From Proteiniphilum sp. X52 (lineage in GTDB: Bacteria; Bacteroidota; Bacteroidia; Bacteroidales; Dysgonomonadaceae), in contig NZ_RDSD01000023.1 of NCBI RefSeq assembly GCF_003712195.1, forward strand, positions 1 to 62,105: a stretch of DNA of 62,105 nucleotides, given 5' to 3'. The first letter of the stretch is position 1; every line of letters begins with the position of its first letter. Below the pieces are notes generated by a model. That model made no database searches. It saw only the letters and a list, made by a program, of their open reading frames with translations, and had not been told where the DNA came from. Below are positions 33,158-51,371 of the stretch, piece by piece. The position numbers and the translations under genes were made by a program.

Positions 33158-34042
33158 ATGAAACGAACAATTTTCTCACTTTTCTTATTTTCAGTAATGA
33201 CGATAACCCTTATGGCACAGCATAATCCGGTACTGTTGTTTCCCGACGGTGCGCCGGGTGAATCACGGAAGATGAAACAGGTGGATGACCAGAGCGGCAA
33301 CAGGGTCGCCGGATGCCCTGTACTCCGTATCAGTAATGTGAGTGAACCAACACTTACTTTTTATCCTGCGCCTGCCGGAAACAATACCGGTGCTACCATC
33401 ATTTTGAATCCCGGAGGAGGTTATAATATACTGGCCTACAACCTTGAAGGATCGGAGATATGTAAGCGTTTCAATAGTTTTGGCATCAATTGTGTGTTGG
33501 TGAAGTACCGCGTGCCGCGCCGCGAAGGGTTGGAAAAACATACGGCTCCCTTACAGGATCTGCAACGCGCCATTGCCTATACACGTTCCCATGCAGGTGA
33601 ATGGAATATCGATCCCGGCAGGATCGGGGTGATGGGCTTTTCTGCCGGAGCACATCTCTCGGCAATGGCAAGTACGGCGTATGGCGAACCTACTTATCCG
33701 AAGGTCGACGCTTATGATGATGTAAGTCTACGACCTGATTTCTGTATTCTTATCTATCCGGCCTACTTATCCGGAGAGAATTTTTCGATTGCTCCTGAAC
33801 TGAAAGTGGATGCCAATACCCCTCCCACTATCCTTATCCAGACTCAGGACGACAAGGATTACATCAATAGTAGTTTGTTTTATTATTATGCGCTCAAAGA
33901 AGCGAAAGTGCCGGCTGCCATGCATTTATATCCCTCCGGCGGACATGGTTACGGCTTGCGTAATACCGGTCACACGGTGAATGAATGGCCCCACCGCGTC
34001 CTTTCATGGATGCGGGATATCGGTATGATCGGGAACAGGTAG
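33158..34042 (+). CDS. Secreted alpha/beta hydrolase (acetyl-xylan-esterase/BD-FAE-like)
   Basis: 294 residues with a signal peptide (about 1-20, LMAQ). The oxyanion block is NPGGGYNILAYNLEG, the nucleophile Ser162 is in GFSAGAH, the acid is Asp231 or Asp232 in QTQDDKDY, and His263 is in GGHGYG. This is the pattern of small esterases acting on acylated plant or microbial glycans, so a periplasmic carbohydrate esterase is likely. No polysaccharide utilisation genes are adjacent. It stands alone between divergent rlmN and a stress-type SDR. Confidence 0.85.
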   Translation: MKRTIFSLFLFSVMTITLMAQHNPVLLFPDGAPGESRKMKQVDDQSGNRVAGCPVLRISNVSEPTLTFYPAPAGNNTGATIILNPGGGYNILAYNLEGSEICKRFNSFGINCVLVKYRVPRREGLEKHTAPLQDLQRAIAYTRSHAGEWNIDPGRIGVMGFSAGAHLSAMASTAYGEPTYPKVDAYDDVSLRPDFCILIYPAYLSGENFSIAPELKVDANTPPTILIQTQDDKDYINSSLFYYYALKEAKVPAAMHLYPSGGHGYGLRNTGHTVNEWPHRVLSWMRDIGMIGNR

Positions 34043-34213
34043 AAAAGCAAACCTTTTGCATACCCTTTGTTTTCCGTTAATCACAATTATAATTTTCTTC
34101 CCATACAAATGCTTAATTAATTATAATACCGTCTGCATCTGAGAACAAATATTCTTCAGGAACAGTTTTATAGATGATTAATTATCAACCGGCAGGTGAA
34201 ACTTATAAGAATT

Positions 34214-35074
34214 ATGCAAAAACAAAATGAAGAAAAAAAATTACGTCCAGAGCAAAAACAACGCCGTCCCGGAAAAGAGTCGAAAATGAGACCGGTTCCC
34301 CATACCGAACCTGTGAAACAACAAAATAAACTTGACGGAAAAGTTGCCCTCATAACCGGCGGCGACAGCGGCATAGGGAAAGCAACTGCCTTGCTCTTTG
34401 CGGCAAACGGGGCCGATATCGCCATAGCCTATTTGAGCGAAACGGACGATGCGAAAGCTACGCAAAAAGAGATCCGCGAAATGGGGAAGGAGTGCCTGCT
34501 CATAAGAGGCGACCTGTCCAAGGAAGTGAATTGCAAAAAAGCCGTCGATAAAACGATTGATAAATTTTCAAAACTCGACATTTTGGTAAACAACGCAGCC
34601 TTGCATTGGGAAACGGAAAGTCTGGAGGAAATATCGACCGATCAGTTGGAGCGCACTTTTGCTAACAATGTGTTCTCTTACTTTTGGGTTACCAAGTACG
34701 CCCTGAGACACTTAAAAGAAGGGAGCGCCATTGTGAATACAAGTTCCGTAACAGCTTACCGCGGAAGTGGAAAGCTGATTGATTATTCCGCTACCAAGGG
34801 CGCTATCATCAGTTTCACCCGCAGCCTTGCCCAAAGTCTGGCCCCGAAAAAAATACGGGTGAATGCCGTGGCGCCCGGCCCTATATGGACGCCGCTGATT
34901 GTGTCGACATTCGATGAGAAAAGGGTTGCTGAATTCGGTAGCGATACGCCCCTGGGCAGAGCCGGAGAACCCAGTGAAGTGGCCCCCTGCTTTTTGTTTC
35001 TGGCCTCCGACGACTCGACTTACATAACCGGGCAATGCCTGCATCCGAATGGTGGCGAGATTGTGAATGCGTGA
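34214..35074 (+). CDS. SDR family oxidoreductase (YghA/general stress protein 39-like)
   Basis: 286 residues from the ATG at 34214. A lysine/glutamine-rich N-terminal extension (about 1-38) precedes the Rossmann start KVALITGGDSGIGK (about 43-56). Catalytic residues are S178, Y191 and K195 in YSATK, plus NNAAL and APGPIWTPL. This form with a long N-terminal tail is typical of stress-associated SDRs that reduce aldehydes or similar substrates with NAD(P)H. The stop codon is 3 bp from the convergent gtrA stop. Confidence 0.88.
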   Translation: MQKQNEEKKLRPEQKQRRPGKESKMRPVPHTEPVKQQNKLDGKVALITGGDSGIGKATALLFAANGADIAIAYLSETDDAKATQKEIREMGKECLLIRGDLSKEVNCKKAVDKTIDKFSKLDILVNNAALHWETESLEEISTDQLERTFANNVFSYFWVTKYALRHLKEGSAIVNTSSVTAYRGSGKLIDYSATKGAIISFTRSLAQSLAPKKIRVNAVAPGPIWTPLIVSTFDEKRVAEFGSDTPLGRAGEPSEVAPCFLFLASDDSTYITGQCLHPNGGEIVNA

Positions 35075-35077
35075 TAT

Positions 35078-35494
35078 TTAACGGAAAGTAAAGAAATAGT
35101 TCGCCAGAAAATTCCACAGTGTGACAAGGGTGATGGCAGCCATCTTTGCCAGATAGAAATTCACCTTACCTTTCTCGTGGAGCAGATAAAGAAAAAAATT
35201 ATTCAGACCGAGTCCGATCAGGGATACTACAATAAAAGAGAGATACTCGCTTCGTAAATCAGGATTCTCGCTTTCAAAAGTCCATATTCTGTTCAGCAGG
35301 TAATTGGAGGTGGCTGCCAGTATGAAGCCGATAGAATTTGAAAGAAACTTATTCCATTTGAACTTCTCTTTACATAGCCACGTAAAGAAAAAATCGACGA
35401 TCATTCCTGATAATCCTACTGCCCCGAATTTCAAAAATTTCAGTAACAACTCAGAAATACTGACTATTTCAAAGTCCGAAAAGATTTTTTCCAT
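35078..35494 (-). CDS. gtrA: GtrA family membrane protein (putative lipid-linked sugar flippase/accessory)
   Basis: 138 residues with four predicted helices and the GtrA pattern (LKFLKFGAVGLSGMIVDFFFTWLL-like start, SNSIGFILAATSNYLLNRIWTFE in the middle, WNFLANYFFTFR at the end). GtrA proteins help move or position polyprenyl-linked sugars. The mycobacterial member Rv3789 sits beside dprE1/dprE2 and is tied to arabinan synthesis. Here the gene closes an operon carrying the same set. It overlaps the lepB end by 31 bp, so the two are translationally coupled. Confidence 0.88.
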   Translation of the reverse strand: MEKIFSDFEIVSISELLLKFLKFGAVGLSGMIVDFFFTWLCKEKFKWNKFLSNSIGFILAATSNYLLNRIWTFESENPDLRSEYLSFIVVSLIGLGLNNFFLYLLHEKGKVNFYLAKMAAITLVTLWNFLANYFFTFR

Positions 35495-36129
35495 TTTTCC
35501 TGAGAAAAGATGATTCTGTTTACTTTTCCTATGATCTCTTTTTCATTGACATAACCGAAGAAACGGCTATCCCGTGAAATTTGCGGATTATCCCCCAAAA
35601 CAAAATAGTAGTTGTTTTGTACCCGATAAATAGTCATTGGTTTTCCATTGATTGATATGGAATTATTCTGCAATTCAACGGTATTATTCTCCCGTATAAT
35701 GATCTCCTTATAATCAATGAAATTATCGGGATTGATAATAAGATCCGTCCCTTTTTGCAATATTTGAGAAATTCGTTTCACCAGCAATACTTCTTTATTT
35801 TCAGGACTTTTAAAAATAATAAGATCGTTTTCCTGCGGCATTCTTAATCCCTTTAGCCGATGGTATCCCCAATTCGTTTCCATATCTTTTTCTCGCAGTG
35901 AGGGAATCCATGTGAAGATGTTTACAAGCGGAATATCAGACCAGCGGGCAGGTAGTATAGCGCCATAGCTGACCTTATCGATCCATAACCAGTCACCCGC
36001 CATAACAGTCGGTTCCATACTACCACTGGAAATACGGCACGGTTCACCGATAAAAGTCCGTATTAAAATCGCAATAAAAAATATGCTTAAAAAGAGATGA
36101 ACAAATTTATGAATAACTCTTCTCATCAT
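35464..36129 (-). CDS. lepB: Signal peptidase I
   Basis: 221 residues. One N-terminal helix (about 8-26) precedes the nucleophile Ser37 in ISSGSMEP; the general-base Lys118 is in VLLVKRI, and GDNPQISRDSRFFGYV is the C-terminal family box. It is shorter than the housekeeping LepB of Bacteroidales, so it may be a second, dedicated copy. It is embedded in the arabinose-lipid operon, overlapping the phosphatase gene by 23 bp and gtrA by 31 bp, which suggests it processes proteins belonging to this system. Confidence 0.93.
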   Translation of the reverse strand: MMRRVIHKFVHLFLSIFFIAILIRTFIGEPCRISSGSMEPTVMAGDWLWIDKVSYGAILPARWSDIPLVNIFTWIPSLREKDMETNWGYHRLKGLRMPQENDLIIFKSPENKEVLLVKRISQILQKGTDLIINPDNFIDYKEIIIRENNTVELQNNSISINGKPMTIYRVQNNYYFVLGDNPQISRDSRFFGYVNEKEIIGKVNRIIFSQEKWKKSFRTLK

Positions 36130-36760
36130 CCAGATATTTGGAATTCATTTTTAAGATATGTGAAACATTCTTTGTAGTCAACTTAGCATTATAATGTATT
36201 TCCAATAACTCCAAAAAATAGTTATCGGAATTACTATTTCCATATCCGAAGCTAGTAGTATAATTTTTCTCTTTAATTAAATCTAATACAATCCTTTTTT
36301 TTCTCAGCCCATGACAATTTCCTCCTTTAATCTTTCCCGTGAAAACCCCATTCTTTATTTCATATATAGTTCCTATTAATTCCATCCCGTTTATATCGCA
36401 CCATTTTTTCAACCAAATCGAAGAAGATGCTGTCAATATAATGATTCTATCATTCCTTTTTTTATGCCATTCTATAAGTTTAATTGCATCTCTTCGACAA
36501 ATATATGGCAACTTCTTCTCACAAAATTCATTTCCTTTTTTAATCAAATATGATTCTGGTTTATTCTTAAAAAAAAAGGAAAATAAGCGTTCTTTCAATT
36601 TAAAATTAGGATATATTCTAAAAAAATATAACAACGTAAATGGTATTAAACTCAATATTCCCTTATAAAAATGACTACCTTCACAGAATTTTATAAATTC
36701 AAAAAATGTATTTTTGAAAGTTATAGTACCATCCATATCAAAAACAGCAATACCTTTCAT
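36107..36760 (-). CDS. HAD-IB family phosphatase, candidate polyprenyl-phospho-5-phosphoribose phosphatase
   Basis: 217 residues. Motif I is FDMDGT with Asp8 and Asp10, motif II is ILTAS, and the motif III/IV region is FGYGNSNSDNYFLEL. The cap region (about 40-80) is helical and hydrophobic (LSLIPFTLLYFF), consistent with a membrane-lipid substrate. In mycobacteria, dephosphorylation of decaprenyl-phospho-5-phosphoribose is assigned to a PAP2-type enzyme; a HAD enzyme beside UbiA, DprE1 and DprE2 could fill that step here. The family is sure, the substrate is inferred from context. Confidence 0.8.
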   Translation of the reverse strand: MKGIAVFDMDGTITFKNTFFEFIKFCEGSHFYKGILSLIPFTLLYFFRIYPNFKLKERLFSFFFKNKPESYLIKKGNEFCEKKLPYICRRDAIKLIEWHKKRNDRIIILTASSSIWLKKWCDINGMELIGTIYEIKNGVFTGKIKGGNCHGLRKKRIVLDLIKEKNYTTSFGYGNSNSDNYFLELLEIHYNAKLTTKNVSHILKMNSKYLDDEKSYS

Positions 36761-36769
36761 AGATTATCA

Positions 36770-37510
36770 TTATAAACTTAATTTTTTAAATATTTTCTCA
36801 GGAATCAATTTTATTATACAAGTGATCATCTTCCAGATTCCTAATACATAAATTTTTTCTTTCTTCCTTTTGTAAGCAATGTATATGGTTTTTGCAACTG
36901 TCGACGGTTGTGCTGTTAAAATAGAAGGAGTTTTTAAATGAGAAATCATCTTAGTGTCTATATATCCTGGTATTACAGTTATTATATTCACGTGTGATTT
37001 AGAAAGCCTATTTCTCAATCCACTTAAATATGCTGTAAATCCAGCTTTAGCACTCCCATAAATATAATTATTCCCTCTCCCTCTTTCACCGGCAACAGAA
37101 GAGATTCCTATGATTGTACCAGCATGGTCGTCTTCCATTATATTTGCCAGTATATTTAAAATGGAAACATGAGCTACATAGTTATTATTAATTATAGCTA
37201 ATGATTCGTTAAAATTGCCTAAAGCTTTATTATGATCCCCTAAATATCCAAAGACAGAAACAACAACATCAGGAAACATAGGCAGTGATTTTACAAACTC
37301 CATGTGATTCTCAAATTCATTTCCATCGAATAAGAGATTAAAAGTTTTGACATCATTTTTAATTGAAATATCAGCCGACAATCTTTGCTGATAATCTGTA
37401 ATTTTTCTGGCAGCTAATTGGATGTCGAATCCCTCTTTTGCAAATTTATATGCAATAGCTTCACCCAAATCCGAATTTGAACCAAGAATCAAACAGGTTT
37501 TATTGGCCAT
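36770..37510 (-). CDS. dprE2: DprE2-like SDR (decaprenylphospho-2-keto-ribose reductase)
   Basis: 246 residues. Cofactor motif CLILGSNSDLGEAIA; catalytic Ser/Tyr/Lys in ISSVAGERGRGNNYIYGSAKAG, which closely follows mycobacterial DprE2 (SSVAGER...YGSTKAG); then VIPGYIDTKM and a hydrophobic C-terminus ending KIFKKLSL, as DprE2 ends IFRKLPI. It would reduce the 2-keto intermediate made by DprE1 to the arabinose epimer. It lies 33 bp after dprE1 and 9 bp before the phosphatase. Confidence 0.9.
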   Translation of the reverse strand: MANKTCLILGSNSDLGEAIAYKFAKEGFDIQLAARKITDYQQRLSADISIKNDVKTFNLLFDGNEFENHMEFVKSLPMFPDVVVSVFGYLGDHNKALGNFNESLAIINNNYVAHVSILNILANIMEDDHAGTIIGISSVAGERGRGNNYIYGSAKAGFTAYLSGLRNRLSKSHVNIITVIPGYIDTKMISHLKTPSILTAQPSTVAKTIYIAYKRKKEKIYVLGIWKMITCIIKLIPEKIFKKLSL

Positions 37511-37543
37511 TTCATCAAAGATTTTATATTATTACTGTATCTT

Positions 37544-38857
37544 CTATATATCTAGTCTTGTAGACTGGAGAGATTGAAATTTATTAGGATGAGTAAAATC
37601 AGTATTGTACATTTCTTTAAACAGATTTTTTGGGATTAGAAGATCTTTTGTTAAGTATATTTTCCCTTCGTATTTGAGTACCAGTGTGTGTAGCTGATTG
37701 ATTAAATCAATATTTTGACGATTTAATTTAAAATCAAGGGCTAATGTATAGCCTGGCATTGGGAACGAAATAGGTGCTGCATACTCGCATTTATCTCCCA
37801 TAATTTTAAGAATAGCCAATGGAGAAAAACAAGATGAACTTACAATTTTATCGATGATATTTTTTATGCCTTCCTTACCCTTTGTAAATGGAATTACAAA
37901 TTGGAATTGAGTGAATCCTTTTTTGCCATACACCCTATTCCAATTGCTGATACTATCCAAGGGATAAAAAAAACTATTATAGTGAATTAAAAAATTACTT
38001 TCTTTCTTTATTTGTTTATTATAATATATGGAGTTCCAATTGCTTATAAACTGTTTATTTAATATAAACGAAGGAAACGTGAAAGGCACATTTATTAACG
38101 GGTTAGATCTCTGTACTTTTAATGGATTATTTTTTTTATCCACAGGTAAATCCTTTAACAGAGCATGTTCTCCCAACAAAAGGATAGATTTTCTGGTTGA
38201 ATTTTTCATCGAGTTGCAATTAAGCCAAGCTACAGAATAAGTATAAAAATTATATTCTTCTAATTTATCCAATAGTTCATCCACTCCTTTTATTTTTATA
38301 GATTTTTGTTTTAGATAAGCTGTCTCTATTTTCCTAAGTTTTAAAGTGACGGATACAATAATTCCTGTCAGCCCCATTCCTCCAATTGTATTTGAGAACA
38401 ATTGGGTATTGCGATTTCTAGAACATTCTATTAATTCCCCTTTTGCATTAATCAGTTCTATATTCTCTATGTAAGATGAAAATGCGCCTTCCTTATGATG
38501 ATTCTTTCCATGTACATTTGATGCTACGGCTCCTCCTAATGTAACGTATTTAGTCCCAGGTGTTACAGCAAGAAAAAAACCTTCAGGTACGATTAATTCC
38601 AAAAGGTCTTTTATTAAAATACCTGATTCTGCTTTTATAATGCCATTTTCAGAGTCGAAAGAGATAACTTTATTAAACCTTAAAGTTGAAATAATATGAT
38701 CCTTATTAAGAGAACTATCCCCATAACAACGCCCATTACCTCTTGCTATCAAGTTGTTGCTATTGACGATTATTTCATATAAATCGTCATAATCCTTTCG
38801 CTCTATCAAGTTTGTTTTAATACAAGGGTATAATCCCCAATTACAAATTTTTTCCAT
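37544..38857 (-). CDS. dprE1: DprE1-like FAD oxidase (decaprenylphospho-ribose 2-oxidase)
   Basis: 437 residues, VAO-type FAD protein. Conserved with mycobacterial DprE1 are ARGNGRCYGD (Tyr45), PGTKYVTLGGAVASNVHGKNHH (H116, K118), TIGGMGLTGII, YTYSVAWLN, YPLDSISNWNRVYGKKGF, FQFVIP, FPMPGY and the Lys404-Asp405 pair. The position of the benzothiazinone-target cysteine of mycobacteria (Cys387) is Ala373 here. The enzyme oxidises polyprenyl-phospho-ribose at C2. It overlaps ubiA by 17 bp and precedes dprE2. Confidence 0.93.
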   Translation of the reverse strand: MEKICNWGLYPCIKTNLIERKDYDDLYEIIVNSNNLIARGNGRCYGDSSLNKDHIISTLRFNKVISFDSENGIIKAESGILIKDLLELIVPEGFFLAVTPGTKYVTLGGAVASNVHGKNHHKEGAFSSYIENIELINAKGELIECSRNRNTQLFSNTIGGMGLTGIIVSVTLKLRKIETAYLKQKSIKIKGVDELLDKLEEYNFYTYSVAWLNCNSMKNSTRKSILLLGEHALLKDLPVDKKNNPLKVQRSNPLINVPFTFPSFILNKQFISNWNSIYYNKQIKKESNFLIHYNSFFYPLDSISNWNRVYGKKGFTQFQFVIPFTKGKEGIKNIIDKIVSSSCFSPLAILKIMGDKCEYAAPISFPMPGYTLALDFKLNRQNIDLINQLHTLVLKYEGKIYLTKDLLIPKNLFKEMYNTDFTHPNKFQSLQSTRLDI

Positions 38858-39722
38858 ATAAAATAATCGTAAAGATAAAAAACCAGATAATAATTACAAT
38901 CTTTAAATATAAATCTTTCATTAGAATATTCATAGGACAACCCGATTTTCTTTCAACTATGGAAAGCTGTATATAACGCATAATGCCTATAAAGACAGGG
39001 ATAGACGTAAGGTATAATTTATTCGAACCTATTCTTTCAATCACATCCTCAGAAACCGTATAGAGGATATATGTAATAAGAGTGACAGAAAAACCGATTG
39101 TTTCGGCCACATCCATAAAAACTATATTATATTCTTTTTGTACGTCCCGGTATATATACTTTTGCGATAATATAAGATCATCTCTTCGTTTGGCAAAAGC
39201 AATAGATACGGTGAGGAAAAATACAATAATCAGTATCCAATGACTGACAAATATGTCACTCATAACCCCGCCGCTTTTTATTCTTAAAATGTATCCAAGA
39301 CCTATGCATGATACATCGACGATTGGGATTTTTTTTAACGATACAGAATATGATAAATTTAATGCTATATATAATATTACATATAAGCCGGAAGATTTCA
39401 GATAAGGAAATAACGAAATGAATATGATCAATAAAATAAAAGCGATAATTAAGGTTTGCTTTTTAGTGAAAAAGCCGCTTGCCAGCGGTCTTGTGAATTT
39501 TATTGGATGGTATTTATCCTTTTCAACATCCAGAACGTCATTGACAATATATATGATGGAGCAGGCCAAACAAAAAGAGGAAAAAAGAATGAATAAATCA
39601 TATATTGTGTTTAACGGAAGATCGAAAATTCTGCCGGAAAAAAAAGCCGGAATAAATATCATTCCATTTTTAATCCAATGATCTACCCTTATTAATTTAA
39701 GAAATTGGGAAATAGTTTTCAT
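38841..39722 (-). CDS. ubiA: UbiA-family prenyl-phosphate 5-phosphoribosyltransferase (DPPR synthase-like)
   Basis: 293 residues with about nine helices. The first Asp-rich motif is NDVLDVEKD (61-69) followed by HPIKFTRPLASG; this HPxKxxRP extension distinguishes decaprenyl-phosphate phosphoribosyltransferases (Rv3806c type) from quinone prenyltransferases. LSYSVSLKKIPIVDV and ILRIKSGGV also fit. It would transfer phosphoribose from PRPP to a polyprenyl phosphate, the entry step to lipid-linked D-arabinofuranose. Its ATG overlaps the GT22 stop by 4 bp. Confidence 0.92.
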   Translation of the reverse strand: MKTISQFLKLIRVDHWIKNGMIFIPAFFSGRIFDLPLNTIYDLFILFSSFCLACSIIYIVNDVLDVEKDKYHPIKFTRPLASGFFTKKQTLIIAFILLIIFISLFPYLKSSGLYVILYIALNLSYSVSLKKIPIVDVSCIGLGYILRIKSGGVMSDIFVSHWILIIVFFLTVSIAFAKRRDDLILSQKYIYRDVQKEYNIVFMDVAETIGFSVTLITYILYTVSEDVIERIGSNKLYLTSIPVFIGIMRYIQLSIVERKSGCPMNILMKDLYLKIVIIIWFFIFTIILYGKNL

Positions 39723-41260
39723 GGTAATATGTAACTGATTTTTTCGTAATCTGTTATAAACGGATTGGGAGTGTATAAGAGCAATACAGAATTTTCATCA
39801 TACACTTTATATAGTTTGTTAAAAAAGCTCATCCAAGTTGGGATACTTTCATGTTCAATTTTATATCCGGATGTTTCAAGAAGTTCGCGTTCATGAAAAT
39901 ATCCTTTTGGAATAGTCACTATTGCATTATCCGGTATATCATTCAGAAACTCTGTATCAATAAAATGAAGGTTTACTTCATCATCCATATAGAATCTTTG
40001 AATCCAGCCTTTGGCATTCCCGATAGAATACGGTCCATAATAGGTACTGTAAATATCTATTGGATTACCCTTATAATAAGTTTTCTGGATATATTCAGCT
40101 AAATTTACAGCCCCGCTACCTGCGGGTTTGAAGATCATAAATAATCCCCCCGCATTTACTATTATCACTGCGAAAATAAATGAGTGGAACATAACTTGGA
40201 AATATCTTTTCTTGATTTTATATATTATTCTCTGATAAGTCCAGATAAGTAAGATGGGGGCAAAATTAATTATCGGGAAAAAATACCGAATTTCTTTATG
40301 GCCTATGAAAGAGTGAATTACCAAATATGGTAAAATGCACCACAGAATAATATTTTTATAATCATAAAATAATAAGTAAATCAGAGAAAACAAAATGGAA
40401 ATACCAATAATTAATGTAGGCGCTGTTACAATTTTCTGAATATAATAATACCAGGGCTCTAATCCATAAAAGTTTACTACATTGTCAATAAGATCAACCT
40501 TAAAATAATTATAAGGTGCAAAAACAAATTCTCCATAATAAATTGTATCTAACAGGGTACATAAGAATACAATTGTAAATAGCCCACCCAGGACAAAGAA
40601 AAGATCCCTGAATCTGATTTTTTTAATTAATAATAACCATAATAGTAGACCTGTTACACAAAGTCCCATCTGGAAACGAAATTCAAAGCTTAATCCGAAT
40701 AATACGCCTATAAGAAAAAAATAAATGTTGGTATGTCTATTTAATTGGATTAAACCTACAGAAACTAAGAGACATAAACCAGCCCATACTTCAGATGAGA
40801 AACGCACATTAATTGAGGGAAGAAACCATAGTACAAAAGATAAAAAGGAAAAGACCGTATAGAACCTTCTTTCTATAGTAGGCCTGAAACAACGGATAAA
40901 AAAGGAAATGGAAAAAACAGATAAAATTGCTGTTATTCCTCTTAATATCATTGCCAAAACATACGGGTTATTCAGATTAAATAAAGAAAAGAAGTAAAAA
41001 ATACATAGAGCAATATACGGTTGTAATGACGAACGAATTTGTGAATCATATTCCCATGCCAAATCATAACCGGTATTCCATCCCGCTTTTAATCCGGCAA
41101 ATTCAATTAACTGGAAATGTTCATCGGGATGATGGAAGCCGTTACTATAGAAAATAGATAAGGTGTATATGACTATAATGATATATATATTAAAAGATTT
41201 AATATACGTTATCTGGTTCTTTTTTAGATTTTGTACCATATATACTAAAATTGACTTCAT
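39719..41260 (-). CDS. GT22/GT-C family polyprenyl-phosphosugar-dependent glycosyltransferase
   Basis: 513 residues (505 if Met8 at 41239 is the start) with about ten helices. Two GT22 hallmarks of ALG9/PIG-B-type enzymes are present: HPDEHFQ after the first helix (44-50) and HKEIRYFFP (321-329), the bacterial form of HKExRF. These enzymes use lipid-phosphate sugars and act on the outer face of the inner membrane. In an operon that seems to make polyprenyl-phospho-arabinofuranose, it is the natural candidate for the arabinosyltransferase; the acceptor is unknown. It overlaps the DUF1573 gene by 41-62 bp. Confidence 0.85.
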   Translation of the reverse strand: MKSILVYMVQNLKKNQITYIKSFNIYIIIVIYTLSIFYSNGFHHPDEHFQLIEFAGLKAGWNTGYDLAWEYDSQIRSSLQPYIALCIFYFFSLFNLNNPYVLAMILRGITAILSVFSISFFIRCFRPTIERRFYTVFSFLSFVLWFLPSINVRFSSEVWAGLCLLVSVGLIQLNRHTNIYFFLIGVLFGLSFEFRFQMGLCVTGLLLWLLLIKKIRFRDLFFVLGGLFTIVFLCTLLDTIYYGEFVFAPYNYFKVDLIDNVVNFYGLEPWYYYIQKIVTAPTLIIGISILFSLIYLLFYDYKNIILWCILPYLVIHSFIGHKEIRYFFPIINFAPILLIWTYQRIIYKIKKRYFQVMFHSFIFAVIIVNAGGLFMIFKPAGSGAVNLAEYIQKTYYKGNPIDIYSTYYGPYSIGNAKGWIQRFYMDDEVNLHFIDTEFLNDIPDNAIVTIPKGYFHERELLETSGYKIEHESIPTWMSFFNKLYKVYDENSVLLLYTPNPFITDYEKISYILP

Positions 41261-41681
41261 CGTTACTCACAATACCCTTGATAGTTACTAAGATCGGAGA
41301 TTCATACCCGTAAAAATATATAAACACCACCCTCTCGATATAACCGTAATCCAACTCTGTTGGGGTGAAATTTAATTTAATCACAGAACTTTCTTTAGGC
41401 TCTAAAATAAACGGAGTGTTAGAAATCTTACTGATAAGGCACTTACAACTGGTTTGAATTTGTGCTACCTGTATTTTGTTTTCACTTAAATTTTTTAACG
41501 GAATATCTATGTCAAACTTATTTTTTTTATTTCGAGATGTAATTATTTTTCCAAAATCTACTTCTGTTGGTATTTCTATTTGGAGAACATTCGTTTTTCT
41601 CGAATTACATCCTGAAATCGTAATACAAATAACTGATAATATTAGAAAGCACTTATATATTTTGTGTTTATTTTCTTGCAT
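41199..41681 (-). CDS. DUF1573 domain lipoprotein
   Basis: 160 residues. The lipoprotein signal ends ITISGC (Cys about 25). An immunoglobulin-like DUF1573 domain follows: VDFGKIITSRNKKNKFDIDIPLKN, then the typical TSCKCLISK cysteine pair and the proline-rich turn ending in FTPTELDYGYIERVVFI. Function is unknown. It overlaps both neighbours (14 bp with the propeller gene, at least 41 bp with GT22), so it is part of the same operon. Confidence 0.85.
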   Translation of the reverse strand: MQENKHKIYKCFLILSVICITISGCNSRKTNVLQIEIPTEVDFGKIITSRNKKNKFDIDIPLKNLSENKIQVAQIQTSCKCLISKISNTPFILEPKESSVIKLNFTPTELDYGYIERVVFIYFYGYESPILVTIKGIVSNDEVNFSIYGTKSKKEPDNVY

Positions 41682-42876
41682 CTTGTACTATTTGTTGTAT
41701 GTTGATAAATACGATTATTGGATTACCATCTTCCTCAAATTCCGAACGAATCTCTTTTATTGATTCATTCTCACTTATTATATCTTCGTTAACTTCTTTA
41801 AAACCATCTCTTAGCATAAAAACTGCGACGAAATATTTATTTGTACTGGCTTTAAAGTTTCCAAAAGAAACTATGTCAGCTATGGGATATTTATAAAATT
41901 CTTTATCTAAAGTTATTGAAAAGTTTTGGTTATATTGTAAATCTCTAAATATGTGATAAATCTTATTTTTATGATAATTATTGTATAATAGGTATAAATA
42001 TTCATCTGTAGATAATATCTGTTCTAATCCTAATGAATAATTATCTTTCTTTAAATTACTATCGAAATCCAATATTGTTCCTGTTTCGTTTCTACCTGAA
42101 AATTTTGTATTTTTATTAATCTGTTTCAAATGAGTACTCACTAATAGATATGGGTTAATGTTATTATTATGATATTTTTGAACAATGTCTGAATATTGTG
42201 TAAGAATAAAACAGGTGTCTTGAACCATTGTGACCCTAGGAAAGCCATATTTCATTGAAACGTTATTAGTAGCTAGATAGGGGAAAACTTTCCTTTCCAA
42301 TTTCATGTTTTCTTCATCTACCAGTAAGTATTCATATTTATTTCTTGGCTCGTTGTAGGTTGTGAGTACTAATTTGTTCTCATCGCTCAGTAGGTCTACA
42401 TCATAGAATTCAGAGATCGAGTTATCGTACTTAATTTTATCAAGTAATATCCCATTATAGGAGTATTTGAAGACAGTTTGTCTAAGAATATCAAAAATTG
42501 CTATATATTTTTTAATTGGGTGTACGTAAAAACTAACAATGCTTAATTGCTCATTTGGGCCTCCACCTTTTTCTCCAATCGTATTTAAAAAAGTGCCATT
42601 TGTATCAAATACAAATATCTTATTATTAGAATCTAAAATAAATATTTGATTATCTTTGACAACCAATTTTTCAATATTGTTTCCAATTAAACAATTTTCG
42701 TTAGTCTCTAATTGAATATAAGTGGAATTTTTTATAAAATTACCGGGGGTGATTTTAATTTCTTCAAGTTCTTCAATATCAATGATCAAATCAATAGATT
42801 GCCTTTCTTGTTTGGGATTACAAGACAAAATCAATCCGTTTAGTATAAGAATGAGAATATATTTTTTCATTTTCAA
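41668..42876 (-). CDS. 6-bladed beta-propeller lipoprotein (BF3164/TolB-like)
   Basis: 402 residues; Met3 (42870) is an equal alternative start. Lipobox LILSC, Cys about 19. The first-blade signature is present: IFVFDTNGTFLNTIGEKGGGPNEQL, where the GxGPxE motif is typical of Bacteroidota 6-bladed propeller proteins. The tail (EDGNPIIVFINIQ) resembles the propeller remnant at 61816. It is likely a surface or periplasmic binding protein; no ligand is known. Second gene of the operon, 13 bp after the protease. Confidence 0.88.
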   Translation of the reverse strand: MKMKKYILILILNGLILSCNPKQERQSIDLIIDIEELEEIKITPGNFIKNSTYIQLETNENCLIGNNIEKLVVKDNQIFILDSNNKIFVFDTNGTFLNTIGEKGGGPNEQLSIVSFYVHPIKKYIAIFDILRQTVFKYSYNGILLDKIKYDNSISEFYDVDLLSDENKLVLTTYNEPRNKYEYLLVDEENMKLERKVFPYLATNNVSMKYGFPRVTMVQDTCFILTQYSDIVQKYHNNNINPYLLVSTHLKQINKNTKFSGRNETGTILDFDSNLKKDNYSLGLEQILSTDEYLYLLYNNYHKNKIYHIFRDLQYNQNFSITLDKEFYKYPIADIVSFGNFKASTNKYFVAVFMLRDGFKEVNEDIISENESIKEIRSEFEEDGNPIIVFINIQQIVQDARK

Positions 42877-42889
42877 AGATTTATATTTG

Positions 42890-44254
42890 TTATTTTTTTA
42901 ATTGAATAAACATTTTATTCAGATTCAATGTGATCTTACTAAATTTATTAATGAAATCCGTTCCTAAAGAGCCATCAGCAGAGGGATCTTCCATAAAATA
43001 GTCTACAGTATAAATGGGGATATTTTTAAGAGAGAAAAATGTTTCACCAATTAATAATGCAAGTGAAGGCATTTGATAAATAGTATCGGACTTAATGGCT
43101 CCTACTCCGAAGGAATAAGTGAGTTTTTTCTCTAACGTTGTTTCTATTTCATTTCTATTTTTTAAATAATAGGATTTGAACATATGACTATTACTATTTC
43201 CCGTGTCAAGATGAAATGTAATAAGATCATCTTCACTAAAGGCTTTAACGATAATATTATTTCTTTCGTCGAGTATAATATTCCGGCCTGAAATAGGTAA
43301 TTCGCTTTCTTTCTGAGGGATTATTATCTTCTTGTCGGAGGGATATAATTGTATCTCTCCTATTCTTTTTATAAAATCTATTCCTAAAACTCCATCAATA
43401 TAGTCATTTATATTTTCATTTCTGAAAATACCGGATTTTTCCAAAAAATTATCACTGACTACAATCAATAGATTATAAAGAGTTACTTCTCCCAATGAGA
43501 TATTATCTAATATTGCTAAATTTCCCTGGCTTATCCCTGTACCTGATATATTTATCGAATCATTCAGGTAATGTAAATTTATATTTTTTGAAGTATTATT
43601 AAAAATGCAAGTTGTTTCATATCCCGTATCTAGAATGAAGACATATTCTTTTCCTTGTATAAAAATTTTCACTACTCCTAGAGCACTTGTCATGTCGTGA
43701 ATTGTGTCTTCATCTTTTCGAGAAGTAAAATCCATTTCTATTGTGCCGAAGGGAATTTCAATATTTTTTTCCGGCTTTATTACTTGGGTTTTCTCCTCAT
43801 TACGTAGTGAATTATAAAAATTATACATTTCTTCAAATTTTTTTAATTCTTCTTGAGGCAAATTTTCAGAAACTTGGTCTATAAAATTTTTCAATTCACC
43901 AGCTATAAAGCCGTACTCACCCTGATAAGCCAATAAAGATATTTTATATCGAAATAATTCTACACTATTAGTAAAACCGATATTTTGTTGGTATTTATGT
44001 AGAAGGGTATCAATTGATGAAATCGCGGCCTCGTTTTGATTAAATTTGATATTTAACAAGGATTCTGTAAGCCACTTAAGTTCAGGCGTTTTAATACTGT
44101 CTTGTATTTGAGGATATTCTTTCTCTAGAGCAAACCAGTTATTTTGTTTTAACAATTCGTGGATAAAGATATCATATTTTTGAGCATTTAAATGCTCAAA
44201 AAATAATATAATTATAGAAAATATCATTACTTTTTTATTAATCTTACTTTTCAT
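42890..44254 (-). CDS. Retropepsin-like aspartic protease with two DTG lobes
   Basis: 454 residues. After an N-terminal signal/anchor (about 8-24) and a helical region (about 25-160), two aspartic protease lobes follow, with catalytic triplets D209-T210-G211 (FILDTGYET) and D350-T351-G352 (FHLDTGNSNS). Two lobes in one chain give a pepsin-like single-chain enzyme instead of a homodimer. GVLGIDFIKRIGEIQL and GSLGTDFINKFSKITLNL are the matching second motifs of each lobe. It is the first gene of the ten-gene operon and may process secreted proteins of the locus. Confidence 0.88.
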   Translation of the reverse strand: MKSKINKKVMIFSIIILFFEHLNAQKYDIFIHELLKQNNWFALEKEYPQIQDSIKTPELKWLTESLLNIKFNQNEAAISSIDTLLHKYQQNIGFTNSVELFRYKISLLAYQGEYGFIAGELKNFIDQVSENLPQEELKKFEEMYNFYNSLRNEEKTQVIKPEKNIEIPFGTIEMDFTSRKDEDTIHDMTSALGVVKIFIQGKEYVFILDTGYETTCIFNNTSKNINLHYLNDSINISGTGISQGNLAILDNISLGEVTLYNLLIVVSDNFLEKSGIFRNENINDYIDGVLGIDFIKRIGEIQLYPSDKKIIIPQKESELPISGRNIILDERNNIIVKAFSEDDLITFHLDTGNSNSHMFKSYYLKNRNEIETTLEKKLTYSFGVGAIKSDTIYQMPSLALLIGETFFSLKNIPIYTVDYFMEDPSADGSLGTDFINKFSKITLNLNKMFIQLKK

Positions 44255-44278
44255 AACATTGTTGGATTGATTATCTTA

Positions 44279-44369
44279 AAAATGAGGCAAGGAAAATGCA
44301 AATAGAACTTTTAGGTAAACGTTATGGAAATATTTAGATTTCTAGTATTTACATTCCTTGCCTCATTTT
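44279..44369. repeat. Inverted repeat flanking a promoter (candidate invertible element)
   Basis: Perfect 16-bp arms, AAAATGAGGCAAGGAA at 44279-44294 and its complement at 44354-44369, are separated by 59 bp. With a 2-bp offset the match continues inward (TGCAAATA against TGTAAATA). The loop is too long for an ordinary terminator. A promoter-like sequence in the loop points to the protease operon. Confidence 0.75.
44299..44330 (-). promoter_or_regulatory. Promoter candidate of the arabinose-lipid operon, inside the inverted repeat
   Basis: Read on the minus strand: TTTC (44327-44330), 20-bp spacer, TCTATTTG (44299-44306), against TTTG-N19..21-TAnnTTTG (one mismatch in each box). Predicted start is near 44292, about 38 nt before the protease ATG. 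No TTTG-ended -7 box is seen in the opposite direction within the loop. Confidence 0.5.
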
Positions 44370-44439
44370 GCTGTTTTGTAATTATATATTACAAGATCGT
44401 CTTTATTCTCTTAAGTATAAAAATACCTGAATAAATTTG

Positions 44440-44910
44440 TTAAAATGTTACTTTAATTGTACCTGAAATGGACCAATCACAGTTTGAATTAAAAGAATAA
44501 GAACATGAGGCTACTGAAATTTTAGCGGATGCTCCAACTGTATAGCTACCATATTTTTTACTCCCTCCAAATTCAATATAAGCTCCATAACTGTCTTCTT
44601 TAACTGTTGATGACCCAGTTAACGTCCAGACTATTTTACTATTATTGGAAGAAGGATTGGAACTGCTACCGCCAGAACTGCTACCACCAGAACTGCTACC
44701 ACCAGAACTGCCACCTCCGGAACTGCCACCTCCAGAACTGCCACCACCTCCAGAACTATCTCCTCCACCTGAACCATTCGACTGAGCCAATACTTCCACA
44801 TGCAATTTATTGTCTACTATTCCGTAGTCATCCAGTGCATGTTTGAAGTTCAGCGTAAGCGCAAACAGTAAGGTTGCTATGCCTAAAATTGTTAAGTAAA
44901 TCTTTTTCAT
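44440..44910 (-). CDS. Secreted Gly/Ser-rich peptide with NVEALA-like leader
   Basis: 156 residues. The N-terminus (MKKIYLTILGIATLLFALTLNF, then LHVEVLAQSNG at about 37-47) resembles NVEALA leaders with a degenerate motif. Residues about 46-87 are a low-complexity linker of GGGSS and GGSSS units. The C-terminal part (about 92-156) is beta-rich with two cysteines (SCSYSFNSNC). Ser-dense linkers are common O-glycosylation targets, and a GT-C O-glycosyltransferase-like gene lies 39 bp upstream in the same orientation. No relative of the C-terminal domain is recognised. Confidence 0.75.
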   Translation of the reverse strand: MKKIYLTILGIATLLFALTLNFKHALDDYGIVDNKLHVEVLAQSNGSGGGDSSGGGGSSGGGSSGGGSSGGSSSGGSSSGGSSSNPSSNNSKIVWTLTGSSTVKEDSYGAYIEFGGSKKYGSYTVGASAKISVASCSYSFNSNCDWSISGTIKVTF

Positions 44911-44949
44911 TTCTGTTAATTATTTGATTATTAATTGATATAATTGAAT

Positions 44950-46353
44950 TCAACTATTCATCTTCTGATTATTTTCATCCCGCCAATGACGGGATTGTCG
45001 GAAGACCACGCTATCGTAAAAGATAAGATATGTTTTCATTGTTCCATTGTCAGGTTGAAATAAATGGTAATCGTTTCGTTGTTTCAGTAATTCCCTTAGT
45101 TCTTTCTTCAACGTATCGGTATTATACCATGTATACGTGCGTTTGTGGGCATAAAACCCTAAATACAGTATGTAGCTGGTAAAAAGTATTACTGTTAATA
45201 ATTTAAGGCTTTTCTTTCTGATCCTGTTATACAGAATAACACCGTAATAAGCCAATATAAATCCTATTCCTATCACTGCAACATAGGCATATCTATCGGC
45301 CACAATGGCAAAGCGTGATAGCGGAATGATATGCAAAGCCAGAGCGATATGGATGGTAAAAAATAAAAATCCGAAAGCCATCGGCCATTGCCTGATAAAC
45401 GTCCATAATGATACCGCAATAACTAGTATTATTGCCGGATACACCAACAGCCAGTTGGGTAACGGATCTCCGATAGCAGAAGGAAAAGGATACAGGTAGG
45501 ATAACTTAAACGGGAAAATGATTTTGAACAGGTATTCCAGATAAGCATAAGAGGCATAAACAATACGCTGCCATACTGGGTAATTGTCATGCCCGGCAAG
45601 AAATCCTCCTCCGTCGGTGTACTGGGAATAGATGGTGACAATCCCGAAAATAATGGATAACACGAAGAACGGCAGGGTTGCCATCCATGCCTTCCTATCT
45701 GATAGCTTCCGGTTCAATAACCAGTATATCAATAGCATCCATACCGGGAAAACTACCGCCTGCTCTTTTCCCAGAAAAGAGAGAACGTATAATAAGAGTG
45801 TGTATATGTAAAACCGTGCTTTCGCGGTTTCCATATAACGGAGAAACGTGTAGGTTGCCAGTAAATAGAAGAGGGCATATACCAATACCTTTGATGCGCT
45901 CATCCATGCAACCGATTCAACATTGAACGGATGAACGCAGAATATAAGGGAAGTGATCAATGAAACCGGCGGAATTATTTTAATATCGATTTTTCCGCTT
46001 AAAGTAAGCAATTTCTCTATTACTAAGAATACCAGGCAGGTATTGATGATATGCAGGATAAGACTTGCCAGATGAAAGACAAATGGATTATATCCGGCCA
46101 CAGAATATAAGATCAGGTATAAATATTCATTAAAAGGGGCATATTGTCCATGATAGAATTCGGTAAGTATTCGCCATATATTCTGAAATGTGAATCCACC
46201 TTCAGTATATTGGTTCATCACGACCCATTGGTCGTCCCAGAAATCGAGCAACTGATTACTAAGGATCGGGTAATATATTGCCAATGCAGAGATTCCCAGT
46301 ATTATGAAATACAAGTAGCGGAAAGAAAAGATAGATGGCCTTTGTGTTTCCAT
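44950..46353 (-). CDS. GT-C family glycosyltransferase (TMTC/O-mannosyltransferase-like)
   Basis: 467 residues, about eleven helices. The first extracytoplasmic loop contains FWDDQW, an acidic catalytic pair typical of GT-C enzymes, and HPFNVESVAWMSASK is the block I associate with TMTC-type O-mannosyltransferases; the usual C-terminal TPRs are absent. It should use a polyprenyl-phosphate sugar at the periplasmic face. The next gene, the Gly/Ser-rich peptide, is a possible acceptor. A good promoter lies about 130 bp upstream. Confidence 0.8.
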   Translation of the reverse strand: METQRPSIFSFRYLYFIILGISALAIYYPILSNQLLDFWDDQWVVMNQYTEGGFTFQNIWRILTEFYHGQYAPFNEYLYLILYSVAGYNPFVFHLASLILHIINTCLVFLVIEKLLTLSGKIDIKIIPPVSLITSLIFCVHPFNVESVAWMSASKVLVYALFYLLATYTFLRYMETAKARFYIYTLLLYVLSFLGKEQAVVFPVWMLLIYWLLNRKLSDRKAWMATLPFFVLSIIFGIVTIYSQYTDGGGFLAGHDNYPVWQRIVYASYAYLEYLFKIIFPFKLSYLYPFPSAIGDPLPNWLLVYPAIILVIAVSLWTFIRQWPMAFGFLFFTIHIALALHIIPLSRFAIVADRYAYVAVIGIGFILAYYGVILYNRIRKKSLKLLTVILFTSYILYLGFYAHKRTYTWYNTDTLKKELRELLKQRNDYHLFQPDNGTMKTYLIFYDSVVFRQSRHWRDENNQKMNS

Positions 46354-46481
46354 AAGGAAAAGAATTACGTTTTCATCCTATCGGACCGGCTCGTTTTTGG
46401 TTATTTGCCTCTTCCGGCACTATTCATCTGTCATTGCGATTGTGATAAACGCTTTTATCTCAGTATTGTACTGATAGAGGG

Positions 46482-46513
46482 CAAATATGGGATATTATTT
46501 TGATTATTACAAA
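46482..46513 (-). promoter_or_regulatory. Promoter of the GT-C/peptide pair
   Basis: Minus strand: TTTG (46510-46513), 20-bp spacer, CATATTTG (46482-46489); one mismatch to TAnnTTTG. It gives a leader of about 120 nt to the ATG at 46353. Confidence 0.65.
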
Positions 46514-46545
46514 TATTTTTTTATGTTATCCAACATATTTCACCT

Positions 46546-49500
46546 TCATCTCTTAACCATCAACAGAGGCATGAAAATAAAGATGCCGATAAAAGACATG
46601 ATCAGGCCTCCAATAGTGCCGGCGGCCAGCGGGAACCAGAAGCCTTCTTTCTGCGTGCCGACCAGAAAGGGGATAAAGCCGAGCACGGTGGAGATAATGG
46701 TCAGGAAGATGGGGATAATCTTCGCGTTCCAGGCTTTCAGGTATGTCCGTAACGGGGAGAGGCGGGGCCTGCGCCTTCTTATCCGGTTGTATTCGTCCGT
46801 GATATAAATTCCGGCGTTGATGGTGATACCCGACAGGAGGATAAACGAGGCAAAGCCGCCCTGGTCGAAGTTGAGCCTGAACCAGTAAAACGTCAGGAAA
46901 ATACCGATAAAGGATACCGGGATGATGAAGATCACGGCCAGTGGCTGTTTCAACGAATTGAACAGGATGGAGGAGGTGAAAAATATGATCACGATCAGCA
47001 ACCCTATCAGCCGGTATTGCTTGTTGTTTTTCTTGCCCCAGCCCCAGTAACTGTCTTCCCTTTGCGCCGTATAACCCATCGGGAGCCGCTTGTTGAACTC
47101 CTCGATCTCCCTCTCCAGTATTTTCTGTCCCTGCGTGTTGGAGCCGATATAATCGTATTGCAGTACCAGACGGTATTGCTGGTTTTCCTTGCCTACCTCC
47201 TGCGGCGCCTGCCCCCGGGCAATATCGGCCACTTCGTTCAGTTTATAGTAGCGATCGCCTACGTGACGCCCCAGATGCTGTAATACCCAGATATCATATT
47301 CCCTTGCCTGCCTGCCGGAGAGGATGATATCTTCGTTTTCCCCGTCCATCACCACGGAGCCGATCCACATATTCCTCGCAAAGACCGGCTGGAGTGAGGA
47401 GAACAGTTCGCCGGGTAAAATATCCCGCGCTGCAAGTTGTTCTTTTTTCAGGTCGAATAAGAACTCATGATAATCGTCCTTATACCACGAAAAATTGGAG
47501 TTGACGATCACTTCCCGGATGCGGCGATAGGTAAGTAACCGTTGCTTCAGGCTGTCCGTCCATGCCGACAACTCATCGTAGTTATATCCATAGAGCTTTA
47601 CCCTGTATTGTCCGGCCATATCCCGGACCTCGTTGCTGAACCCCTGGTCCTGCAACCCGTACACGCCCCAGCTGCCGCCGCCCAACTCCAGGGCTTTACT
47701 GATCACATTGCTTTTCAACTGGTAGGGAAAGCCGCTCTGCTCGGCTTCCTTCCGGAAAAAGACATTGATTGAGGCGCGTCGCGCGTTGGGGATGCTGGTC
47801 TGGAACTGGCGTATCTCAGAAAAGCCGCTCAGGTAACGTTCCATCTTGACAACCAGGTCGTTCATCTGTGAAAGAGTGGTGCCGTTGGGCATTGAAGCGG
47901 TGATGGTGAGCACCAGTTCCTCACTGCGGGTGAAGTAACTTCCCTGGTAGACTTTCTCCACGAACAGCCGCAGTGTGCCTCCCAATGCCTTGGCTACCAA
48001 CGGTTTGATTTTCTCCTTGTAGGTGGCGCTCCCCAATATTTCATTATACTTCAAAGCGAAGGGGGTCTTCTTTTCTATCTTGTCCGGCAACATGAAAACC
48101 GGAAACCCGAATAACAGGACGATGGAAGTGAAGGCGATCCATTTCCTGCGGGACAACAGCAGGATCATTTTTTCATAGAGGCGTGTGAGCCGGATGGCGA
48201 TCCGACCACGGGAAAGATAGCGATGGCGAAAAGCGGCAAGACGGCCGGAACGGCCAAAAAGGCGGAATCGGGAAAGGAGGCGGAATCGGGGCGCTCTCCT
48301 CTTCCTGTGCCGCTTTGTAAGCCCTATCCGCTCGACTAAGGCCGGGACGAACAACAGCGCCACGAACAACGATACCATCAGGTTGATCATCACCACCGCC
48401 GCGAAATCCTGCAGGTTAAGCCGTATCCGTTCATCCAGCAGAAAGATCATGGACAATGCGCCGATGGTGGTGACCGTAGCGGTCAGGATAGGCATAAAGG
48501 CATTTCTGTCCCCCTTGTGCATAATATGGTCGGTCATGATGATGGCATTGTCGATGATCAGGCTCAACGAGATGGTGATGCCGGCCAGGGAAAACAACTG
48601 TATCTCCAGTTTGAGCAGATAGTAGAAGATGACGGCGATAGCCAGGTCGACAAAAAGACTGGCGGTGATCAGGAAGAGGTAACGCCCGTTGCGGGTGATC
48701 AGCAGCACGAAAAGGGTGAGGATCAACACGGTGAGCCCGCTGCGGAGATAGATCTTGTTCAGTTCGGCCTGGATATAGTCGGTGGCATCGTAGCTGGCGT
48801 GTATCTGGTAACCGGCCGGGAGCGATGCTTCCAACTCCCGCATCGTCCTTTTCACCTGCTCGTTCAGACGCAACTGGTTGGCCGACTCTTCCGCCGTGAG
48901 GTTGAGGTAAACGGAGTTGAGCCCGTTGATCCGGTAATAGCCCGACGGTTCCCTTTCGGCATGATGCACCCTCACCAACTGGTCCAGGCGGATAAGGGCG
49001 CCATCCCTGTTCGCCACGTGGATGACGGTGGGGTCGAACCGGTTCTCCTCGGCTGTGGATGCCAGTGTGACGCGGATCCATGACGGGGCACTACCCTCTG
49101 TTTTTGTCTCCGCCATCCCCAGGAAATCGGTGGAGTAATACTGAGATACGGCTTGCATGATATCCGTCACGGTCACGCCGGCAGATTCCAGTTGCAGGTA
49201 GTCATATTCCAGTTGCCATTCCATGGGACTGGCACCGGTCACGTCGATCTTGTACAATCCCTTGATATCGCTCAGTGCCGTCTTGATCACGTTCTCCGTA
49301 TAGCGCTGAATAACGATGGGGGTAGCTGCCGAATTAATAGTGTAGGTCATGAAGGGACGGGCGGCATTGTCATCAGGACGGTTCACGGAGATATACGGAT
49401 AGGTTACTTCCCGGGGGAGTTCCGGCCATGTCTGGCGGATGATGGTGGATACTTCGAAGCGGGCCACGTCGATGGGCGTGTGTTTGTCGAGTTCGAGGGT

Positions 49501-49773: not shown

Positions 49774-49800
49774 TCCGCATCCCTAATTCAATATCCGTTA

Positions 49801-51297: not shown

Positions 51298-51305
51298 GTT
51301 TTTTA

Positions 51306-51361
51306 AATTACCAATTACCAATTACTAATTACCAATTACTAATTACTAATTACTAATTACT
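51306..51361 (-). repeat. Heptad tandem repeat, AATTACY class (8 units)
   Basis: Eight units AATTACC/AATTACT on the plus strand, directly upstream of tolC. Same class as 27581-27662. Confidence 0.95.
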
Positions 51362-51371
51362 AATAATCAAT

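Follow-up and report, generated by a model that had tools for sequence, protein, structure and literature searches.

What does an operon resembling the arabinan-donor pathway of mycobacteria make in a member of the Bacteroidales? The window analyzed here, 62,105 nucleotides of Proteiniphilum sp. X52 (NZ_RDSD01000023.1), forms contig 19 in a Bacteroidales genome of 4.43 Mb. An earlier note on this DNA had placed genes for a UbiA-fold protein, DprE1, DprE2, a HAD phosphatase, GtrA and a GT22-family glycosyltransferase in one overlapping operon at positions 35078-41260, and all of them are located there, on the minus strand. Having computed enzyme families, active-site residues, the UbiA fold, gene order, distribution and recent exchange, we find it very probable, judging by the sequences, that this gene set produces the lipid-linked sugar familiar from the cell wall of the tuberculosis bacterium. 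We consider it likely that the operon makes a cytoplasmic polyprenyl-phosphate-D-arabinofuranose (Araf) donor that is used beyond the inner membrane, and that the donor block was acquired horizontally into a unit of GT-C transferase, signal peptidase and GtrA. UbiA would move 5-phosphoribose from phosphoribosyl pyrophosphate (PRPP) onto polyprenyl phosphate, the HAD protein would strip the 5'-phosphate from the lipid-phosphate-phosphoribose, DprE1 would oxidize C2 and DprE2 would reduce it to the arabino form. GtrA may then help lipid-linked Araf cross the membrane, and a GT-C of the operon (the GT22 protein or a second candidate, GTC2) may transfer D-Araf onto a secreted acceptor. Donor synthesis is well supported, and its scheme is drawn from the mycobacterial one as given in PMC11127046; extracytoplasmic use by a GT-C follows three-component logic and the precedent of Pseudomonas pilin. 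We infer the chemistry, translocation, the donor of GT22 or GTC2, the acceptor and the product.

The UbiA-fold protein (38841..39722, minus strand) is predicted to be a polyprenyl-phosphate phosphoribosyltransferase of the decaprenylphosphoryl-5-phosphoribose synthase (DPPRS) type. It carries NDxxDxxxDxxHPxKxxRP, and in NCBIfam it is matched best by the decaprenyl-phosphate phosphoribosyltransferase model NF008977 (E 1.1e-55, 189 bits; the curated cut-off of 234 was missed). Among PDB sequences, at E<=0.01, it matched only two DPPRS entries, 8j8j (1.2e-28) and 8j8k. The nine positions of NDxxDxxxD and HPxKxxRP were invariant in 76 of 76 aligned rows; these and the following residue counts refer to rows of normal length, near-copies included. 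The AlphaFold model (predicted local distance difference test, pLDDT, 94), built on an alignment of the window protein with 39 of 63 UbiA candidates, matched DPPRS 8j8j best among PDB structures (template-modelling score, TM, 0.83; root-mean-square deviation 2.7), the other UbiA-family structures (E<=0.005) giving TM 0.60-0.71. In a tree of 58 rows, with no actinobacterial rows and with very long outgroup branches whose placement drew a program warning, the window protein grouped (support 100) with Algoriphagus and genome G126 among DprE1-linked UbiAs, and the two other UbiA proteins of the genome fell outside the DprE1-linked group (98). Thus the phylogeny and the AlphaFold comparison place UbiA with the DprE1-linked proteins, outside the quinone-type paralogues and nearest DPPRS in fold, in agreement with motif, profile and residues.

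The DprE1-like FAD oxidase (37544..38857, minus strand) matched NF053785 at 7.6e-105 and 352 bits, short of a cut-off of 500 that none of the 395 genomes of the phylum reached, and DprE1 4aut in the PDB at 1.5e-66, its relation to DprE1 extending through most of the protein. Among chosen active-site columns, Tyr45, His116, Lys118, Gln317, Gln319, Lys351 and Lys404 were invariant in 97 of 97 rows; these Tyr, His, Lys and Gln residues have active-site roles in DprE1. At the column aligned to mycobacterial Cys387, 92 of 97 rows have Ala. In a tree of 79 rows (76 of 95 candidates, the window protein and two other FAD oxidases), for which the program gave the same warning on long outgroup branches and which held no actinobacterial proteins, the window protein grouped (98) with G126 and Algoriphagus among other DprE1s and not in another oxidase clade. 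Both trees omit the same 19 loci (Chryseobacterium and one Epilithonimonas) as well as proteins of odd length, those kept being 250-340 amino acids (aa) for UbiA and 380-520 aa for DprE1. Since UbiA and FAD_binding_4 are broad Pfam families, one could take UbiA for a prenyltransferase of the quinone or another type and DprE1 for a different VAO oxidase; we give this practically no credence, as UbiA matched the quinone model TIGR01474 at 3.5e-6 versus 1.1e-55 for the DPPRS model, the sugar-lactone oxidase model matched DprE1 at 2.8e-20 versus 7.6e-105, and the trees and the fold are also contrary.

The DprE2-like short-chain dehydrogenase/reductase (SDR; 36770..37510, minus strand) matched NF053786 at 5e-47 and 161 bits, missing the cut-off of 250, and the generic SDR model PRK07102 scored better (1.2e-84, over its cut-off). 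Its best PDB chain is DprE2 21gq (4.3e-28), and Tyr151 and Lys155 were invariant in 90 of 90 rows, so that profile, residues, closest solved relative and pairing with DprE1 speak for DprE2. The enzyme families predicted earlier for the step from PRPP to lipid-phosphate-phosphoribose and for C2 epimerization are thus present with conserved active sites.

Adjoining DprE2 is a HAD-IB protein (36107..36760, minus strand; Pfam HAD 1.1e-24, over its cut-off), the candidate 5'-phosphatase of lipid-phosphate-phosphoribose. Asp8 and Asp10 are present, and the model, built from the window protein and 25 of 54 HAD candidates, has pLDDT 95.3 with 3fvv and phosphoserine phosphatases as its nearest structures. 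We examined 98 DprE1 loci, 97 of which hold a DprE1 open reading frame (ORF); one scan behind them kept the best 80 of 582 confirmed matches, so that they lean towards relatives of the Bacteroidota query. A HAD protein lies within four ORFs of DprE1 in 62 of the 97 and a PAP2-like DUF212 protein (named through Pfam for two seeds) in 5, the two occurring together in none. We favour HAD as the 5'-phosphatase because it lies near DprE1 in these 62 loci and is never found alongside DUF212. UbiA, DprE2 and HAD are all near DprE1 in 61 of the 97 loci, and the order UbiA-DprE1-DprE2-HAD is common in Bacteroidota.

All genes from 35078 to 41260 lie on the minus strand and overlap by 4 to 31 bases or are separated by gaps of 9 and 33 bases. 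The GT22-family glycosyltransferase, a GT-C (39719..41260; Pfam Glyco_transf_22 7.2e-33, over its cut-off), overlaps UbiA by 4 bases, and HAD overlaps a type I signal peptidase of family S26 (35464..36129; TIGR02227 9.3e-30, over its cut-off) by 23 bases. The genes named in the earlier list are right, but this signal peptidase, between HAD and the GtrA-family candidate lipid-phosphate-sugar translocase (35078..35494; Pfam GtrA 2.7e-28, over its cut-off), had been overlooked. The run also extends upstream to 46353 through genes that the list did not mention, likewise on the minus strand: a DUF1573 protein (41199..41681; Pfam 5.5e-11), a 6-bladed beta-propeller protein (DUF5128/DUF4934; 41668..42876; Pfam 1.4e-23), a retropepsin-like aspartyl protease (42890..44254; Pfam Asp_protease_2 2.4e-11), GSpep (44440..44910), and GTC2 (44950..46353), a polytopic probable GT-C glycosyltransferase (Pfam PMT_2 E 0.0011, under its cut-off). 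GSpep is a secreted peptide precursor recognized from its sequence and a leader alignment of 11 rows, its leader ending in VEVLAQ and being followed by a long Ser/Gly tract. From GTC2 to GtrA the genes overlap or are spaced by no more than 185 bases, and from this spacing we infer a single transcript. Predicted promoters (67 versus 64.5 in shuffles) and terminators (6 versus 6.6) were not above chance.

How did the operon come to this genome? DprE1 was found at E<=1e-30 in 82 of 395 Bacteroidota genomes, which rules out a 'first in Bacteroidota' and does not bear out the rarity in the phylum that the earlier note had supposed, though in the order it is found in 2 of 393 Bacteroidales genomes. 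At the family level, at E 0.001, it was found in 4 of 101 genomes, strongly only in the own genome and in G051 (the other two at 4e-13 and 4e-8). P. acetatigenes DSM 18083 (NZ_KB905710.1) encodes an identical DprE1; over 13.3 kilobases (kb) of the window (33,536-46,875) it shows zero substitutions, the sole difference being an indel of 15 bases in GSpep's Ser/Gly repeat; identity is ~94-96% in the adjoining kilobases and 86-96% further out. At the same site, between a resistance-nodulation-division (RND) efflux operon and an esterase gene, the congeners G088 and G060 carry other peptide/propeller genes instead. The 13.3 kb without substitution and these other genes at the site give the impression of a hot spot at which two species exchanged DNA very recently. 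GC content is 28-33% at 36-45 kb and mostly 43-56% elsewhere, with further dips at 3-4 and 56-62 kb, and at third codon positions it is 24-31% from HAD to GSpep, 38-47% in the signal peptidase, GtrA and GTC2, and 72% in the neighbouring RND gene. Relatives of DprE1 were found in 64 plasmid records, 34 of them from Rhizobium, all below 60% identity, and no recent donor was found among them.

Several observations weigh against the proposed arabinofuranose operon. UbiA, DprE1 and DprE2 each remain under their NCBIfam cut-offs, so that their names rest on the sum of the evidence. In motif IV the HAD protein carries Asn175, at a position occupied by Asp in 61 of 64 rows; the remaining three, with Asn, are copies of the window protein. 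The GT22 sequence alone had no PDB match at E 0.1, and a profile of 11 relatives was closest to ALG9 mannosyltransferase structures (best E 1.2e-9). An AftB-like transferase was not found in the genome with an Algoriphagus protein as query, which itself matches NF041481 at 0.021 and for which there was no positive control. Finally, GT22, signal peptidase and GtrA occur together without strong DprE1 or DPPRS in G100 and G159, so the donor of GT22 may be a hexose. That the HAD protein removes the 5'-phosphate is likely, if less sure given Asn175; the dephosphorylation step claimed earlier retains the locus linkage and Asp8/Asp10 on its side. The same Asn175 and the scores under the NCBIfam cut-offs could mean that the product of the block is polyprenyl-phosphate-ribofuranose or carries some other pentose, or that the block is in decay, which we regard as improbable, as the catalytic residues of UbiA, DprE1 and DprE2 are conserved and the frames of the operon are intact and identical in P. 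acetatigenes.

The transferase-translocase part needs more caution. G100 has GT22 (49%), then signal peptidase (50%), GtrA (60%) and an efflux operon, with no Araf genes between, and in G159 the order is GTC2 (63%), GT22 (47%), signal peptidase (48%), GtrA (54%) and efflux operon; no DPPRS at E 1e-5 and no strong DprE1 was found in G100 (89% complete), G159 or G038 (82% complete). GTC2 relatives are clustered with the same peptide type in G038, G433 and G375, and relatives of the signal peptidase share clusters with GT22 or GTC2 in G100, G159, G433, G375 and G051. Other GT22 relatives in the order are mostly solitary; among the matches listed (20 loci in 19 genomes), peptide, signal peptidase or GtrA accompany them only in two loci of G159. 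GtrA is near DprE1 in 8 of the 97 loci, six of them from Pseudomonadota and one from P. acetatigenes. Because the GT22-signal peptidase-GtrA unit occurs elsewhere without Araf genes, its descent is independent of that of the Araf block and neither GT22 nor GtrA is Araf-specific by descent, so that the earlier placing of both in the Araf set by descent is unsupported. The existence of such units, together with the likeness of GT22 to ALG9, also weakens the inference that GT22 uses Araf. GT22 and GtrA might instead use another lipid-phosphate sugar, e.g. a hexose, as would have to be the case in G100 and G159, Araf being used by an unlinked transferase. We find this rather unlikely, given that the operon lacks a GT2 donor synthase, that the donor block overlaps both GT22 and the signal peptidase gene, that the genome lacks a further GT22 (at E 1e-5) or GTC2 (at E 1e-15), and that GtrA is near DprE1 in the six Pseudomonadota loci. 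Joint use of the donor block with GT22 and GtrA is still favoured by the gene overlaps and by the GtrA genes found near DprE1 in other phyla.

A similar RND efflux operon lies beside the unit in three genera (window 46546-55903; L158; L195), flanking it at the GtrA end in G100 and G159 and at the GTC2 end in the window, and is a possible peptide exporter. A profile of GTC2 had no PDB match at E 0.1. Elsewhere, 18 loci (L044:12147-13802 and 17 others) encode members of a family of polytopic proteins of ~550 aa no more than five ORFs from DprE1; those of L044 and L046 have no Pfam match, that of L044 no NCBIfam match either, and they are candidate new arabinofuranosyltransferases. An AftB-like GT-C adjoins UbiA in Pseudomonas indica (L131:13391-15079; NF041481 1.9e-10, far under the cut-off), and Algoriphagus has a very weak AftB-like match between DprE1 and DprE2 (L060:11305-12978; NF041481 0.021).

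What, then, could the acceptor be? GSpep had no Pfam match at E<=1, PF14055 (NVEALA) included, and none of six GSpep-type peptides tested matched Pfam NVEALA, a family name for which our literature search found no paper. The relatives of GSpep have its leader in common. In the 30 residues after the leader, Gly, Ser and Thr make up 27-97% in 11 peptides of this type (at least 60% in 7) and 7-40% in seven NVEALA-type peptides; the two ranges overlap. One NVEALA-type peptide was cut at a misplaced position, and one further match was spurious. Similar clusters were found in other genomes. In G433, L250 reads propeller, peptide, propeller, 197-aa protein, GTC2, GT2 and signal peptidase, L252 peptide, propellers, GTC2 and GT2, and L249 peptide, propeller and GTC2; in G375, L253 has peptides, propellers and GTC2, with a signal peptidase and then GT2. 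Peptide clusters with GT22 or GTC2 are also present in G051 (L254, L256), G038 (L159) and G159 (L196). The three GT2 proteins of these clusters match PgfS at ~271 bits, against a cut-off of 500, and a model of ArnC type, again under the cut-off; by sequence they are probable polyprenyl-phosphate-sugar synthases. In L250 the GT2 gene sits between GTC2 and the signal peptidase with 4-base overlaps, and in the window UbiA-DprE1-DprE2-HAD sits between GT22 and the signal peptidase. From this one exact parallel comes the reading that the donor block, having arrived horizontally, would have joined a GT-C/signal peptidase/GtrA unit tied to Ser/Thr-Gly-rich peptide clusters and would occupy the place that a GT2 polyprenyl-phosphate-sugar synthase holds in L250.

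Of 70 chosen genomes, 6 matched a leader profile of GSpep. All six belong to the seven listed with a GT22 or GTC2 relative of at least 39%, but the profile was built from these same six genomes, and most loci had first been reached via GT-C matches; the seventh, G100, had no leader match, nor had the other 63. At five places outside the set used to build the profile, glycosylation genes lie beside the peptide in two, namely GTC2 (50%) with a weak signal-peptidase match in L278 and GT2 (47%) with a partial signal peptidase at a contig end in L277, and not in three, namely L274, which belongs to the own genome, L276, and L275, at a contig end. The peptide in the own genome (L274:8993-9253) is a second of GSpep type (88% in the leader part); next to it lies a propeller but no transferase, and a short 58-aa ORF there resembles the first part of the 191-aa protein encoded in L256. 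The window itself holds a second peptide/propeller cluster at 55912-59291, whose peptide at 57296-57604 matches Pfam NVEALA at 1.4e-8.

The setting of the donor genes, inside a cluster for a secreted Ser/Gly-rich peptide and glycosyltransferases, suggests, short of proof, that this peptide or some other molecule at the surface bears D-arabinofuranose. In a bolder reading, which we hold possible but less likely than not, GT22 and/or GTC2 would O-arabinofuranosylate the Ser/Gly tract of GSpep in the periplasm from polyprenyl-phosphate-D-Araf and the operon's signal peptidase would cut its leader, as part of a modular Bacteroidales system with an exchangeable donor, GT2 (PgfS/ArnC-like) for another sugar and UbiA-DprE1-DprE2-HAD for D-Araf. 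The donor may also be made and feed an envelope polysaccharide or a lipopolysaccharide side chain, the peptide cluster being a mere neighbour. Published systems act on O antigens, according to PMC11127046; neither peptide type was found at the other DprE1 loci searched (L041-L058, L060-L138), and in the Bacteroidales genome G126 (L041) the four flanking genes scanned include no GT-C. Here, however, the donor block overlaps genes for a GT-C and a signal peptidase inside a peptide cluster, and no O-antigen or capsule genes were recognized among the ORFs listed for 23.9-62.1 kb, so that we see this use as possible but lean away from it. It shares its donor part with the operon function that we prefer; the two overlap, and their likelihoods need not add up to one.

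If the donor part of the arabinofuranose operon works, D-arabinofuranose chemistry best known from mycobacteria would be a movable module in Bacteroidales, and this would bear on which natural D-Araf polymers are met by D-arabinan-degrading Bacteroidetes, a question raised in PMC10115798. If peptide arabinofuranosylation is true as well, a class of peptide/propeller clusters would gain a function, sugar-coated secreted peptides, and we would have a natural case of changing the sugar of protein glycosylation by exchange of the donor module.

Rv3789 is GtrA-like. The mycobacterial decaprenyl-phosphate-arabinose pathway comprises Rv3806c, Rv3807c, DprE1, DprE2 and Rv3789 (PMC11127046), and the operon shares with it a UbiA-type DPPRS, DprE1, DprE2 and a small membrane protein proposed as translocase. 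Unlike in that pathway, the phosphatase here is a HAD protein, called unrelated to Rv3807c in PMC11127046, no Emb/Aft-type transferase was seen in the operon, and the lipid is presumably undecaprenyl. The three-component pentofuranose systems of Citrobacter O1/O2 (Kelly 2024, PMC11127046) also combine PPPRS and HAD phosphatase, a translocase and a GT-C, and candidate systems of Araf-containing glycans have DprE1/E2 homologues according to the same source; here, in contrast to Citrobacter, HAD is a separate gene, GtrA replaces MATE (none was seen in the operon), the transferase is GT22 by Pfam where Citrobacter has GT136, and the setting is a peptide cluster and not an O-antigen locus. Arabinosylation of Pseudomonas aeruginosa group IV pilin by TfpW (PMC11841053, PMC11127046) is similar in its proposed undecaprenyl-phosphate-Araf donor and in a GT-C that modifies a secreted protein, but there the acceptor is pilin, and the transferase here is GT22 by Pfam. 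Bacteroidales NVEALA peptide/6-bladed propeller clusters (PF14055) likewise have a small leader peptide and propeller proteins, and occupy the same chromosomal site in G088 and G060; the leader here differs in lacking a PF14055 match and in being followed by a Ser/Gly tract, with glycosyltransferase, signal peptidase and donor genes added. The donor biochemistry is thus already known from mycobacteria and proposed for Pseudomonas pilin, and DprE1/E2 systems for Araf side chains have been proposed in print (PMC11127046). To our knowledge, within the literature searched, four features are new: the setting in Bacteroidales, the GT22-signal peptidase-GtrA chassis, the surrounding peptide cluster and the very recent exchange.

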